NCBI GenBank assembly: GCA_024278345.1
Contig: JAJRTK010000233.1
Location: 1 to 7,274, forward strand
Length of the DNA: 7,274 nucleotides
Direction of reading: 5' to 3'
From: a bacterium
GTDB taxonomy: Bacteria > CSSED10-310 > JAJRTK01
A model generated the notes under the pieces. That model had not been told where the DNA came from and searched no databases. It saw nothing but the letters and a program-made list of their open reading frames with translations. A program made the position numbers and the translations under genes. How positions within the stretch are numbered: the stretch's first letter is position 1; each line of letters starts with the position of its first letter. Below are positions 1,719 to 7,274 of the stretch, piece after piece.

Positions 1719-3014
1719 ATGTTAGGTGTTAGAAAGAGGTTCGGTTGGTGCTTGTTCTCGTCGCTCTTGATAGGAGCGGTTTCCGGTGGAGAAGCCCGGG
1801 GAGCCGAAGTGGACGGGAGTTTTTCTTTGAGCGCACTCGCGATTGTCTTTGGCGGTGAATCGAGGTTCAGGCTAAGTGGCCGGCTCCAGCTCGACTTGGA
1901 AGGTCTCTTGGGTTCGCGAGGCAAGATGAGCATCGACATGGAAGGGCGCCGGTCGGGTGGGGTTCGAGGAGACTCCGCGGGGCTGCGTGCTTTCCGGCTG
2001 GAATACGATCTGGTTCCGGATCGGGTATCGGTGCAAGTCGGCCGGCTGGAGTTCTGGGAGCTGGAGGGCTTGCTCCTAGACGGGATGTCGCTTCGATGGA
2101 AGATGCGTCGCGGGTTGAGCTTGGAGCTCGTGGGCGGAAGCCGACCCGCTCTCCGATCACCCTACGGGACGACCGATCTTGGCCGGCTGAGTTTTGGAGC
2201 GCTCCTTCGATCAGAGGGACCACGCCACTATCTGACCGCGGGCTTCTCCGAGCTACGGAGTGTTGCGGGATTGGAGCGTCGGGCGGCGAGTTTTTCTGGG
2301 AGAGCATCGCTCCTTGGGCGGAAGTTATCCGTGAGCGGGCAGGCAACCGTCGATTTGGGGCAGGCCCAGAAGGCCGTCAACCTCACGAGCCTTTATTCCA
2401 ACCTGACCTTTCGACCGAACCGAAGATTCGATGTCGCGGCCAGTTTTTCCAGCACGACGGCATTTGTCCCCGACGCTCCGGATCCCAATACACTCTTCGG
2501 GGATCTGCCGCAAGATCTCTGGCCTCCGCAGGATCAAAACGTGGATCGATTTGGCCAAAGGCGTCAGACGCTGAGCTTGCGGGGCCAGATCTCCCCCTTG
2601 CGCCTGGTTTCCATCTACGGCGATTGGAGGCGCGACATGAGCGAATCGGGAGCGGAGGGTCCGGACAGTTGGGGAGTCGGAGCCCAGCTCCGCTTCAGTG
2701 GCCGCGGCAGGACGCGCCTCAAGATGGATCTTTCCCGCTCTTTGTTGGCGGATACTGGGTCGTGGAGAGTGCGCGGCGGCCTTGAGCATCGATTCGGACA
2801 GAAAATCGAGACGGAGGTCACCCTGAGCCGCCGCCAGTACGATGCAAAGGGGTCGGGCCTGGGGTTCTCTTCCGTGGCTCCCAAACTTGGAGTGGATGGA
2901 CAGTTCTTCATTCTCTTGAACCGTCGCCTTTCCCTGGTCACGACTTACGGCCTCGAGCTGCAAGACGGCATGACCACGCATGTTGCGACGAGCCGTTTTC
3001 GGATTCGGTTCTAA
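1719..3014 (+). CDS. Probable outer-membrane beta-barrel (porin-like) protein
   Basis: Exported protein of 431 residues, probably an outer-membrane barrel that could sheath or contact the multiheme cytochrome encoded downstream, as porins do in porin-cytochrome conduits. The N-terminus has basic residues (RKR, 5-7), a hydrophobic stretch to about residue 22 and a probable signal peptidase site near residues 26-29. The mature part is made of many short alternating polar/hydrophobic segments, such as RFRLSGRLQLDLEG and SLRGQISPLRLVSIYGDWRR, typical of antiparallel membrane strands, and it ends in FRIRF with a terminal Phe, the usual barrel-assembly signal. No CXXCH or other cofactor motif is present. 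I do not recognise a named family; it is much shorter than MtrB/PioB porins (about 600-700 residues or more). The start has GGGGA eight bases upstream and lies three bases after the previous stop codon, implying co-transcription and possibly translational coupling. Confidence 0.75.
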   Translation: MLGVRKRFGWCLFSSLLIGAVSGGEARGAEVDGSFSLSALAIVFGGESRFRLSGRLQLDLEGLLGSRGKMSIDMEGRRSGGVRGDSAGLRAFRLEYDLVPDRVSVQVGRLEFWELEGLLLDGMSLRWKMRRGLSLELVGGSRPALRSPYGTTDLGRLSFGALLRSEGPRHYLTAGFSELRSVAGLERRAASFSGRASLLGRKLSVSGQATVDLGQAQKAVNLTSLYSNLTFRPNRRFDVAASFSSTTAFVPDAPDPNTLFGDLPQDLWPPQDQNVDRFGQRRQTLSLRGQISPLRLVSIYGDWRRDMSESGAEGPDSWGVGAQLRFSGRGRTRLKMDLSRSLLADTGSWRVRGGLEHRFGQKIETEVTLSRRQYDAKGSGLGFSSVAPKLGVDGQFFILLNRRLSLVTTYGLELQDGMTTHVATSRFRIRF

Positions 3015-3032: not shown

Positions 3033-4361
3033 ATGGGATGGGATCACGTGTTGGTGGGGTTGATCTTGGCGTGGGTTGCGGTTCGAGCCTTTTCCAGGGG
3101 GCAAGAAGAAACGAAGGCGGCGGTGGAAGTGTTGAGCGCGTCCCGCGCCGCGGGCCGGGACCAGCCGCCATCGCTCCATCCGGTGATCGATTTGGGGCTT
3201 TGCATCGGGTGCGGCAGTTGCGTACGGGCATGTCCGGAGCAGAAGGTCTTAGGTCTTATCGACGGGCAGGCGGCTCTTATCGACGCAGCCTCTTGTGTGG
3301 GCCACGGAGCATGCGCCCAAGTTTGCCCGGCCTCGGCCATCGAACTCGTTTTGGGCACTGAAAAGCGGGGCGTCGAGATTCCGGAGCTGGACCCCCAATA
3401 TCAGACGACGGTTCCGGGGCTCTATGTAGCCGGTGAGCTCGGAGGGATGGGCCTGATTCGCAATGCCGTAAGGCAGGGGACTCTGGCGATTGACGCAATT
3501 GCGGAGGATTTGAATCGCGAGCTCCGTGCTGCTCATCCGGGGGACTCCATCGATTTGCTCATCATCGGTGCCGGACCCGCCGGCCTCACGGCGGCCATGG
3601 CCGCCAAGGGAAAGGGGATCTCCGCGAAAATCTTGGAACAGGCCGACGATTTGGGTGGAACGATCCTCCATTTTCCCAGGCGCAAACTGGTCCTTTCCAC
3701 CGATGTCAATTTGCCGGGTTACGGAGCCATCCGAAAGCGGCAGATGAGCAAGGAGGAACTTTTGGGAATTTTGCAGAAAGCGGCCCGGGCCACTGGAATC
3801 GAACCACTTTTTTCCTGTCGCGCCACGGGCATTCGTAGGGAGGACGGGCTCTTTGTGGTGGAAACGACCAAGGGAATTTTTAGGGCCCGCAAGATCTTGT
3901 TGGCCATCGGTCGCCGAGGAACTCCCAGGAAACTACGTATTCCTGGTGAAGACTTGCCAAAGGTGGTCTACCTTCTCCGGGACTCCGAGCAGTACCGCGG
4001 TCGGCGGTGCCTGGTTGTGGGAGGTGGAGACAGCGCCGTGGAAGCCGCTGTTGCACTCTCGAAAGAACCGGGAACCAATGTTACACTTTGTTACCGTGGA
4101 AAATCGGTTTGGCGTGCAAAGGCAAAGAACATTCAAGCCCTGCGGAAAGCGTGCGAATCAGGGAGTCTCGATCTCCTATTAGAAGCGGCTCCCACGCGAA
4201 TCGAGCTGGATGGCGTCTACATATCGGTTCGCGGTGTGGAGCGGTTACTCCCCAACGACGATGTTTTCGTCTTCGCCGGAGGAATCCTACCAACCAAGTT
4301 CTTGGAGAATGCGGGGATCCGGATCAGAATGGTACATGGAGAACCGATGCTTGCGGCATAA
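3033..4361 (+). CDS. Ferredoxin-fused FAD/NAD(P)-dependent oxidoreductase
   Basis: A 442-residue electron-transfer flavoprotein, probably linking NAD(P)H or NAD(P)+ to Fe-S clusters and from there to the membrane cytochromes. An N-terminal helix (about 4-20) without a cleavage site probably anchors it in the inner membrane. A ferredoxin domain follows: CIGCGSCVRACP (Cys57, 60, 63, 67) and CVGHGACAQVCP (Cys88, His91, Cys94, Cys98), in which His replaces the second Cys. Residues 126-160 match the end of a thioredoxin-reductase-like FAD domain (VPGLYVAGELGG). Only after this comes the FAD-binding GAGPAG (179-184), then the NAD(P)-binding GGGDSA (330-335) and a closing FAGGILP (415-420). No redox-active CXXC of thioredoxin reductase is seen. 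AAGGAAGG lies seven bases before the ATG, and the gene starts 18 bases after the barrel gene. The motifs make flavin and Fe-S binding very likely; substrate and direction are inferred. Confidence 0.9.
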   Translation: MGWDHVLVGLILAWVAVRAFSRGQEETKAAVEVLSASRAAGRDQPPSLHPVIDLGLCIGCGSCVRACPEQKVLGLIDGQAALIDAASCVGHGACAQVCPASAIELVLGTEKRGVEIPELDPQYQTTVPGLYVAGELGGMGLIRNAVRQGTLAIDAIAEDLNRELRAAHPGDSIDLLIIGAGPAGLTAAMAAKGKGISAKILEQADDLGGTILHFPRRKLVLSTDVNLPGYGAIRKRQMSKEELLGILQKAARATGIEPLFSCRATGIRREDGLFVVETTKGIFRARKILLAIGRRGTPRKLRIPGEDLPKVVYLLRDSEQYRGRRCLVVGGGDSAVEAAVALSKEPGTNVTLCYRGKSVWRAKAKNIQALRKACESGSLDLLLEAAPTRIELDGVYISVRGVERLLPNDDVFVFAGGILPTKFLENAGIRIRMVHGEPMLAA

Positions 4362-4385: not shown

Positions 4386-7274
4386 GTGCTTCACGATGGA
4401 TGGCTGAAACGTTTGGCTTCTTTTCTTTGGCTTTTGTTCCTTGGTTTCATGGTCGTTTGGATGGATCCGGCGGGGGCTCAGGATGTCATGTCGGGCCTCA
4501 TTAGCCCCGGGCAGCTCTCCCATGCTCACGCACAACTTGAAGGGGTGTCCAGTTGCACCCGTTGCCACGAGTTGGGGAGCGGGATTCCGGCGAAGGCATG
4601 CTTGGAGTGCCACAGTCCCATTGCCCGCCGAATCGATAGCGGGCAGGGGCTCCATGGCTTGCTTGGCCACAAGGCGGCCAACTGTATCGAATGCCACCAG
4701 GAACACAAGGGAAGAGATTTCGACCTCCTTGGCCTGGATCTCGAGTCCTTCCAACACCATGCCACGGGATGGGACCTGACTGGGCGCCATGGGAAGCTAC
4801 GTTGCCAAAAGTGTCACAAAAGGAAAGGAACATTTCTGGGGGCCCCAAAAGAGTGTCGCCGTTGCCACAAAGATGTCCACAAAGGCCAGTTTCGGGGGCG
4901 CCCTTGCCACGAGTGCCACACGACCGAATCCTTCAAAAAGGTTGATTTTGACCATTCCAAAGCCCGGTACGCCTTGGCGGGACTCCATCGGAAGGTCAAG
5001 TGCGAGAAATGCCATCAGAAGGGCGTCTTCCGGGGGCTTGACTTCGCCGATTGCGCTTCGTGCCATCGAGATCCCCACAAGGGTCAATTCGCCAAACAGC
5101 GCTGCGCCGGGTGCCATCTGGAGACCGAGGCTTGGAAAGAGGCCAAGAAACGGGTGGAGCATTCCAAAACCCGGTTTCCTCTTCGGGATGCACACCGCCG
5201 TGTGGACTGCAAGAAGTGCCATGCTGGCGGCAAGTTCCGTTTTCCCAAGCTGGAATGCGCGAGCTGTCACAAGAACCCTCACCGCCGTCAATTCGCGGGG
5301 CGCGGCTGTGAGAGCTGCCACACCGAGAAGCGTTTTCAACCATCGACATTCCAGCACGACAAAGCAAGATACGCTCTGTCGGGCCGTCACATCGCCTTGA
5401 GGTGTGCCAAGTGTCACCGCAACGGCACTTATCGACCTCTGGAGTTCAAGGACTGCTCCAGTTGCCACAAGGATCCCCACCGCGGGCAATTCCGCGGGCG
5501 GAAGTGCGCGGAATGCCATACGACGTCCGGATGGCAGTCGGGAAAAGAGTCCGTGGATCATGCCCGGACCCGTTTCCCCTTGAAGGGTGCTCACGCTGCT
5601 GTGGCGTGCGAGAAGTGCCATGCCAAGGGGATTTTCCTCTTCGATTCCCTGGAATGCCGCTCCTGCCACAAGGACCCCCACAAGGGGCAGTTTCCTCGCA
5701 GGGACTGCGGGGCCTGCCATACAGACAAAAGCTTCCGGCCCGCCGCGGTCGATCACTCGAAGTCACGGTTCCCGTTGGAGGGGAAGCATCGAAAGGTGGA
5801 GTGTGCCAAATGTCACGACAAGGGCCATTATCGTCCCCTGGAGTTCCAGCGTTGCGCCAGTTGCCACAAAGACGTGCATCGAGGGCAGTTCGGGAAGAAA
5901 GACTGCGTGGCCTGCCACAATGTCGATAACTTCGTGCCGGCCACTTTCGACCATGCTAAGGCCCGGTTCCCGTTGGAGGAGAAGCACCAGAAGGTGGAGT
6001 GTGCCAAGTGTCACGACAAGGGCCATTATCGTCCCCTGGAGTTCCAGCGTTGCGCCAGTTGCCACAAAGACGTGCATCGAGGGCAGTTCGGGAAGAAAGA
6101 CTGCGCGGTCTGCCACACGGCTGGTGGTTTCTTGCCCGTGGTCTTCGATCACCAGAAGGATTCAAGTTTCCCGCTTCTTGGAAAGCACCGGCGGCTCAAG
6201 TGTGAAAAATGCCACCAAAAGGGGCGCTATAAACCACTGAAAACTGACTGCGCCTCATGCCACAAGAACGTCCACAAAGATTCCCTCAAGGCGGTGTGCG
6301 AGGATTGCCACCATCCCGGCGACTGGAAACAGACGCCGTTTCCCCACGATCTTCCGACGTTTGAGCTCGAAGGACAGCACCGGGTGCTCCCGTGCGAGGA
6401 ATGCCACACCGCCGGTGTCGAAGTCGCCGCCACCGAGGTCTTGTCTCCGGAGTGTGCCAGTTGCCACAGAGACGAGCACGCGGGACAGTTGGGCCGAGAC
6501 TGCCAGTCCTGCCACGTTCCGCTCTCCTGGAGCGTCGTCAAGTTCGAGCACGTGGAGATCAGCGACCGCCTTTCCGGTATCCACACAGCGTTGGACTGTG
6601 TGGAGTGTCACCGTGCCAACTTTTTCCGAGGCCAGAGCACCGCCTGCCTTGCTTGCCATGCCGCCAACTACCGCTCCGCCGACGAACCGGACCACGCGAA
6701 CCTGGGCTTCACCGCTTGCGAGCAGTGCCACGGCCAGATCGCCTGGGAACCCGCGAGCTTCGATCACTCCGGCTTCCCATTGAGCGGAGGCCATCTGGGG
6801 CTCGATTGCACGGCTTGCCATGCCAGCGGTTACCAGGGGATCAGCCGCCAGTGCCGATCCTGCCATCTAGCAAACTATCGGGCAACCCGAGATCCCGATC
6901 ACCAAGCGGCAGGCTTCCCGCAACTCTGCGAAAACTGCCATTCTACAGCCTCCTGGAGGCCGGCGGCCCTAGACCATTCGCGGTTTTTCCAATTGACCGG
7001 CGCCCACGTGGGCCTCGATTGTTCCAGTTGCCATCTCGGGGGCCTGTTCGCCGGGACACCACGAGATTGCGTGGGCTGTCACCAGCAGAACTACGATGCC
7101 ACAAAGGAGCCGAACCACCGAGCCTCCAATCTTCCCACGGCCTGCGAGCAGTGCCATTCCACCACGGCGTGGGAGCCGGCGAGCTTCGATCACGACAAGT
7201 TCTTCCAGCTCACGGGAGCGCACCGGGGCCTGGATTGCGCCAAGTGCCACGTCAACGGAACCTACGCGGGAACA
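4386..7274 (+). CDS. Giant multiheme cytochrome c, at least 40 hemes (3' partial)
   Basis: Exported c-type cytochrome running past the window edge; 963 residues are present with no stop. A signal peptide is clear: basic N-terminus, hydrophobic residues about 11-26 and an AGA cleavage site at 29-31, so the protein acts in the periplasm or beyond. Forty CXXCH heme-attachment motifs lie between residues 57 and 955, about one per 24 residues, always in groups of three: three near the N-terminus (57, 72, 100), nine tri-heme units of about 66 residues (140-737), then units of a second type (738 onward). Non-motif His residues in FDH, GxH and DPH contexts roughly match the heme number, suggesting bis-His ligation. 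The likely role is a long molecular wire for extracellular electron transfer. GTG at 4386 is chosen because AAGGGGG (4371-4377) sits eight bases upstream; GTG at 4377 would overlap that site, and the ATG at 4366 hits a stop after five codons. The gene begins 24 bases after the oxidoreductase. Confidence 0.95.
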   Translation, partial: MLHDGWLKRLASFLWLLFLGFMVVWMDPAGAQDVMSGLISPGQLSHAHAQLEGVSSCTRCHELGSGIPAKACLECHSPIARRIDSGQGLHGLLGHKAANCIECHQEHKGRDFDLLGLDLESFQHHATGWDLTGRHGKLRCQKCHKRKGTFLGAPKECRRCHKDVHKGQFRGRPCHECHTTESFKKVDFDHSKARYALAGLHRKVKCEKCHQKGVFRGLDFADCASCHRDPHKGQFAKQRCAGCHLETEAWKEAKKRVEHSKTRFPLRDAHRRVDCKKCHAGGKFRFPKLECASCHKNPHRRQFAGRGCESCHTEKRFQPSTFQHDKARYALSGRHIALRCAKCHRNGTYRPLEFKDCSSCHKDPHRGQFRGRKCAECHTTSGWQSGKESVDHARTRFPLKGAHAAVACEKCHAKGIFLFDSLECRSCHKDPHKGQFPRRDCGACHTDKSFRPAAVDHSKSRFPLEGKHRKVECAKCHDKGHYRPLEFQRCASCHKDVHRGQFGKKDCVACHNVDNFVPATFDHAKARFPLEEKHQKVECAKCHDKGHYRPLEFQRCASCHKDVHRGQFGKKDCAVCHTAGGFLPVVFDHQKDSSFPLLGKHRRLKCEKCHQKGRYKPLKTDCASCHKNVHKDSLKAVCEDCHHPGDWKQTPFPHDLPTFELEGQHRVLPCEECHTAGVEVAATEVLSPECASCHRDEHAGQLGRDCQSCHVPLSWSVVKFEHVEISDRLSGIHTALDCVECHRANFFRGQSTACLACHAANYRSADEPDHANLGFTACEQCHGQIAWEPASFDHSGFPLSGGHLGLDCTACHASGYQGISRQCRSCHLANYRATRDPDHQAAGFPQLCENCHSTASWRPAALDHSRFFQLTGAHVGLDCSSCHLGGLFAGTPRDCVGCHQQNYDATKEPNHRASNLPTACEQCHSTTAWEPASFDHDKFFQLTGAHRGLDCAKCHVNGTYAGT
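4803..6596 (+). repeat. Array of nine tri-heme units (type A) within the cytochrome
   Basis: Residues 140-737 of the cytochrome contain nine successive units of about 64-69 residues, starting at Cys140, 206, 275, 340, 409, 473, 539, 606 and 670. The typical order is CxKCHxKG, an aromatic/Pro segment such as YRPLEF, CxSCHKDPHKGQF, CxxCH, then FDHxKxRFPLxGxH. Each unit carries three CXXCH motifs and usually three further histidines. The units are strongly basic (Lys/Arg). Units 8 and 9 depart from the consensus: the RFPL segment before unit 9 is changed and the spacing is altered. Confidence 0.9.
5766..6116 (+). repeat. Near-identical 198-bp tandem DNA duplication
   Basis: The stretch 5766-5918 recurs at 5964-6116 with an offset of exactly 198 bases (66 codons, one tri-heme unit). 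Within it, 97 bases (5811-5907 and 6009-6105) are identical, including third codon positions, while other units of the array share protein pattern but not DNA identity. This marks a recent in-frame unit duplication or gene conversion. Confidence 0.95.
6597..7274 (+). repeat. Second tri-heme repeat type (type B) in the cytochrome, partial array
   Basis: From residue 738 the heme units follow another pattern: CxxCH, then CxxCHxxNY with a Pro-x-His about nine residues on, then CExCHxxxxWxPAxxDH, FxLxGxHxGLDC and the next unit. Units start at Cys738, 808, 879 and 951, so each is about 70-72 residues. They are less basic than the upstream units and resemble heme repeats common in Geobacter and Anaeromyxobacter cytochromes (from memory, not a search). 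The fourth unit is cut by the window end. Confidence 0.85.

Follow-up and report, generated by a model that had tools for sequence, protein, structure and literature searches.

The stretch of DNA analyzed in this work (referred to as the window; 7,274 nt) is contig C157 of a 6.06-Mb, 550-contig genome, and it carries a series of plus-strand genes related to the PCC3 porin-cytochrome clusters, which He et al. named in 2017 in Proteobacteria as a set composed of a porin, an extracellular multiheme cytochrome (MHC), a periplasmic MHC, and an inner-membrane protein (IMP) (PMC5566968). According to its motifs and five hydrophobic segments, the gene at 798 to 1715 (predicted start codon; frame open from position 390) encodes an inner-membrane diheme cytochrome b-like protein corresponding to the IMP of PCC3 and PCC4. 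It contains the WX3HX13H motif twice (WLDVHIFFGIVGTAMITLH and WHRFHLPFTWLLFGVFALH) with SGVIG between them, which is exactly the signature published for PCC3 and PCC4 (five transmembrane segments, WX3HX13H on TM3 and TM5, and SGXXG on TM4). The following gene (1719 to 3014, plus strand) encodes a product with a signal peptide and a C-terminal alternating FRIRF pattern whose last residue is Phe, and its best matches among all neighbor ORFs, weak ones, are mostly barrel-like ORFs beside cytochromes. These weak signals suggest that it is probably an outer-membrane β-barrel and the porin component of the cluster; no Pfam match was found for this product, and its AlphaFold2 single-sequence fold was too poor to use (pLDDT 31). 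Positions 1 to 139 and 600 to 760 hold a dispersed repeat of an unclassified family. Dozens of copies, mostly 77 to 100% identical and often lying where a contig ends, are scattered over the rest of the assembly, which is a sign that the window is part of this genome.

The third gene (3033 to 4361, plus strand) encodes a membrane-anchored 2[4Fe-4S] FAD/NAD(P)-binding oxidoreductase (YpdA/TrxR-like), as indicated by Pfam (Pyr_redox_3, 1e-38; Fer4_10, 9e-12) and motifs, with a hydrophobic segment at the N terminus. In a Planctomycetota locus (L012), the flavoprotein and the cytochrome b form a single protein; the window flavoprotein is 41% identical to this protein, and the window IMP is 26% identical to its C-terminal part (E = 3e-13). 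The flavoprotein of another locus (L045) bears the IMP motif set, and together these two cases suggest that the flavoprotein and the IMP touch each other. The second Fe-S motif of the flavoprotein (3294 to 3326, residues 88 to 98) reads CX2HX2CX3CP, and His occupied the Cys-or-His place in all 16 sequences captured by this pattern, the window included, which suggests that His is an unusual cluster ligand here.

The fourth gene encodes the cytochrome and runs from a GTG at 4386 to the window edge at 7274 on the plus strand. The original prediction had read 40 canonical CXXCH motifs in 963 stop-free codons, and our recount agreed: neither CX3CH nor CX4CH occurs in this frame and all 80 Cys lie within CXXCH motifs, fewer than one of which would be expected by chance at the given composition (80 C and 89 H in 971). 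The GTG is a plausible start codon, as it lies behind a AGAAGGGGG stretch and ahead of a hydrophobic signal peptide whose end is near AGAQ. The signal peptide (approximately 4386 to 4478, plus strand) is predicted to be cleaved at AGAQ|D, and the hydropathy peak of the entire cytochrome (2.49 over 15 residues) falls within residues 1 to 44. As had been anticipated, the gene is cut by the window edge and the full count is higher. Contig C442, from the same genome, opens with the last 129 nt of the window (7146 to 7274, plus strand) at 100% identity, and in it the frame runs on without a stop directly past the window (L009:130-462), adds motifs up to 45 CXXCH, and ends with TAG at L009:460-462. 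The C terminus obtained by this join is the conserved C-terminal domain of related cytochromes, which supports joining the two contigs. Downstream, a 1,019-aa ORF that by eye resembles TPR repeats with a CHAT-type protease domain lies on the minus strand at L009:459-3518, which makes the cytochrome the probable last gene of the operon; a sigma-70-like factor, also recognized by eye, follows on the plus strand at L009:3675-4229.

The joined cytochrome has 1,073 residues, or 23.8 per heme, in line with the earlier estimate of about 24, and after the signal peptide it is made up of 15 triheme units. Pfam Cytochrome_C7 (PF14522) matches it in 12 stretches (2.9e-51, 171.6 bits versus a curated cut-off of 24.8). 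Each of the 15 units has three or more His that are not part of a CXXCH, a number sufficient to supply second ligands for bis-His hemes throughout the protein. The mature apoprotein is 117 kDa, and about 145 kDa is predicted with 45 hemes. A type-1 N-terminal domain, shared by profile score and alignment with "periplasmic" PCC3-like cytochromes of about 20 hemes, occupies 4494 to 4790 (plus strand, as are the two regions that follow). Type-1 triheme units carrying hemes 4 to 30 extend from 4803 to 6596, with a heme spacing of mostly 16-17/16-17/32-35, and type-2 units carrying hemes 31 to 40 extend from 6597 to 7274, with a spacing of 15-16/24-25/30-31; hemes 41 to 45 lie in C442. Unit by unit, the spacing is near 17-17-32 in units 2 to 10 and near 16-25-30 in units 11 to 14, and the transition from type 1 to type 2 falls between about 6280 and 6600. 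The first part of the protein is basic (pI 9.4) and the second acidic (pI 5.8). A PDB sequence search returned a weak match to flavocytochrome c3 as its sole result, and an AlphaFold2 model of a 9-heme segment was too poor for geometry (pLDDT 51).

Related flavoproteins were sought with a profile in 386 genomes, and 22 genomes from across the bacteria gave matches. Of 23 loci examined at these matches, 22 have the type-1 N-terminal domain, on a cytochrome of usually 17 to 23 hemes; searched for on its own, this domain occurred in 40 of 386 diverse genomes. Most of the flavoprotein loci also contain the IMP and a second cytochrome (type 2), whose heme number varies from 9 to 76 and whose C-terminal domain is common to the group, and in 17 of 18 two-cytochrome loci the net charge of type 1 exceeds that of type 2. 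The same arrangement is seen in a finished record from Emticicia oligotrophica DSM 17448, a cultured member of the Bacteroidota, whose plasmid pEMTOL02 (EMTOL_RS21085-21110; L138:2198-14782) encodes in order CcsA, IMP, flavoprotein, a 23-heme cytochrome, a 40-heme cytochrome, and a further ORF; the N-domain scores 122 bits on the first cytochrome and the C-domain 102 bits on the second. This cluster shares with the window the same IMP, flavoprotein, and cytochrome domains but has two cytochromes instead of one, and a hypothetical ORF takes the barrel position after the cytochromes, whereas the barrel ORF of the window lies upstream. It is a whole electron-conduit cluster on a plasmid, with its own CcsA cytochrome assembly protein. 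A second layout was observed in L101, L102, L103, L108, and L109, where one cytochrome of 26 to 33 hemes with the type-1 N-domain is directly followed by a barrel-like ORF and no flavoprotein is nearby.

The window protein combines what the two-cytochrome loci keep apart. Against the type-1 N-domain profile (22 relatives, window left out) it scored 107.9 bits at residues 37 to 135, versus a shuffle maximum of 27.8, and against the type-2 C-domain profile (window left out) it scored 84.8 bits at residues 1001 to 1072, where the highest score among 200 motif-preserving shuffles was 25.0. Its type-2 part is mostly 41 to 50% identical to the type-2 cytochromes of two-cytochrome relatives (33 to 36% for a few) and 25 to 31% identical to the type-1 cytochromes. 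The middle of the protein keeps the order of repeat types, and the charge contrast between type 1 and type 2 is kept in its two halves. Therefore, by its sequence, the window cytochrome is a natural fusion of the "periplasmic" and "extracellular" PCC3-type cytochromes. No hydrophobic stretch was found near the junction, so that it looks like an in-frame domain fusion rather than the read-through of a lost stop. The type-1 and type-2 modules are so alike that the junction is not sharp, and profile placement gave no exact fusion point.

The fusion is not unique to the window. Complete fused forms exist in another phylum (L169, 53 hemes; L173, 51 hemes), and three others break off where their contigs end, with 32 to 44 hemes read (L104, L170, and L171). 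In the tree, one origin of all fused forms had a p-AU of 0.14, a value that does not tell shared from independent fusion. Nor is the heme count a record. The original prediction had noted that it exceeds most characterised multiheme cytochromes, but for a cytochrome of this kind the count is not exceptional: the earlier survey maximum in print was 45 hemes, a published PCC3 cytochrome has 85 (PMC5566968), and a 76-heme member of the same family, whose C-terminal domain is followed by a tail rich in Pro, Ser, and Arg, is encoded at L068:1345-7206 (genome G283). The original prediction did not extend to the PCC3-type partners upstream or to the joining of two PCC3-type cytochromes, and it is this joining, rather than the number of hemes, that is remarkable.

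The window cluster and PCC3 both have an IMP of about 300 residues with two WX3HX13H motifs and SGXXG, and very heme-dense repeat cytochromes (22 to 39 residues per heme) with large and variable heme numbers; the probable β-barrel of the window may correspond to the PCC3 porin. The published periplasmic MHC has a median of 21 hemes and the extracellular MHC a median of 34 and up to 85 (PMC5566968), whereas the window has one fused 45-heme cytochrome. The periplasmic cytochrome of about 21 hemes is present as the N-terminal part of the window protein, where type 1 is equated with the published periplasmic MHC by its heme number and the position of its gene; the cluster has one cytochrome gene and lacks a separate extracellular one. 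In addition, the window cluster has a 2[4Fe-4S]-flavoprotein, which the parts of the PCC3 description available to us do not mention, and its genome belongs to a different, small phylum, unlike the published proteobacterial examples. With the matching signature, gene content, and heme numbers on one side and the missing separate extracellular cytochrome on the other, we class the locus as a variant of PCC3, not a plain member. The three small periplasmic cytochromes of PCC4 (4, 5, and 10 hemes) are not in the cluster, where the single 45-heme one stands instead.

Two other known systems are close to the window cluster. GSU1996 of Geobacter is a cytochrome c7 polymer with 12 hemes in four triheme domains, and such polymers share with the window protein the tandem triheme modules and Pfam Cytochrome_C7, but the window protein has fifteen modules and sits in a membrane-linked cluster; no c7-polymer PDB entry matched it in sequence. 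The MtrCAB and OmbB-OmaB-OmcB conduits consist of a periplasmic wire, a barrel, and an outside cytochrome, the same working principle as that proposed for the window cluster, whereas the window has far more hemes, in one polypeptide. No Pfam-recognizable porin or decaheme subunit homologous to these conduits was found in the window.

Taken together, these observations suggest that the window encodes a PCC3-type electron conduit in which two normally separate giant cytochromes form one 45-heme polypeptide, a reading from sequence to which we give a probability of about 0.7. Electrons from NAD(P)H (or quinol) would enter the membrane-anchored flavoprotein, pass through its Fe-S clusters to the two b hemes of the IMP, and from there enter the cytochrome at its periplasmic end. 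The type-1 units that make up the basic N-terminal part (about hemes 1 to 27) would cross the periplasm, and the type-2 units of the acidic C-terminal part (about hemes 28 to 45) would pass the β-barrel and reach the outside, with electrons hopping along the 45 hemes and possibly also being stored as charge; an outside acceptor would be reduced, or electrons would be taken up. Partner binding, barrel crossing, direction, and the length of the cytochrome are all predictions. MtrA extends about 100 Å for ten hemes (quoted in PMC5566968), and scaling from it would give a linear length of some 40 nm, longer than a typical periplasm, as an extrapolation only. The heme-dense, wire-like character read from the sequence at the outset proved right, and the idea of a wire spanning the periplasm suits the surrounding cluster and was already in print for PCC3 cytochromes: these have been proposed to bridge the distance between both membranes (PMC5566968), long linear shapes have been predicted in Gallionellaceae, where 21 to 27 hemes could span the periplasm (PMC10734462), and another group reported 24- and 49-heme cytochrome pairs with 22 to 23 residues per heme (PMC7399161). 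In its full form, a single 45-heme chain that starts at the inner membrane on the periplasmic side, threads the barrel, and ends outside, and that is wired to NAD(P)H via the flavoprotein and cytochrome b, the model is tentative, with the odds somewhat against it; one polypeptide from inner membrane to surface would need no protein-protein heme contact in between.

Other explanations were weighed against this conduit. The 45-heme protein might be an assembly artefact, with two genes or repeat copies misjoined, since the contig break sits in a repeated segment: the 129-nt overlap contains 59 nt that are repeated exactly 216 nt downstream. However, the change from type 1 to type 2 lies inside contig C157 and away from the join, no signal peptide remnant occurs at the junction, and complete fused genes with both domains exist in the two other genomes described above, which makes an artefact very improbable. 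Within the window, repeat collapse is unlikely because neighboring units elsewhere are only 50 to 80% identical in DNA (a difference of 20 to 50%) and no tandem array was called; at the break, the 59 identical bases are common to two neighboring units, so that further identical units could be collapsed there and 45 hemes is a minimum.

The cytochrome might instead serve mainly as a periplasmic electron store, a capacitor that the flavoprotein and cytochrome b would charge, and not as a through-wire to the outside. Heme density suits storage too, as has been proposed for such cytochromes (PMC7399161; PMC10734462), and no lipobox or surface anchor was seen on the cytochrome; yet the cluster includes a barrel-like ORF, many relatives have one next to the cytochrome, and the acidic type-2 part matches cytochromes placed outside by the PCC3 work (PMC5566968), so that we consider a mainly storing role unlikely. 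Inward flow is compatible with a conduit and forms a subquestion of it: an outside donor (Fe(II) or a partner cell) would reduce the cytochrome, and the flavoprotein would pass the electrons on to the quinone pool or to NAD(P)+. Binding of NAD(P) is within the capacity of this flavoprotein family, and PCC3 was first described in iron oxidizers, but only a few known iron oxidizers have PCC3 while many other bacteria do (PMC5566968), and sequence does not reveal direction; inward flow seems possible, with the odds somewhat against it.

PCC3 is a putative conduit for extracellular electron transfer. The natural fusion of both PCC3 cytochromes is a separate line of evidence that the two act end to end, and the fused flavoprotein-cytochrome b of L012 is like evidence for the inner-membrane part. 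Together, the two fusions predict a testable sequence of carriers between NAD(P)H and the cell surface, and the N- and C-terminal domain profiles offer a means to find and classify such clusters. The genome of the window also encodes proteins for cytochrome c assembly and is rich in other multiheme proteins, and neither the type-1 N-domain nor the type-2 C-domain scored among the other multiheme proteins read from it. These include another 21-heme cytochrome of a different type (L132:1042-3039) and more than 10 further multiheme frames.
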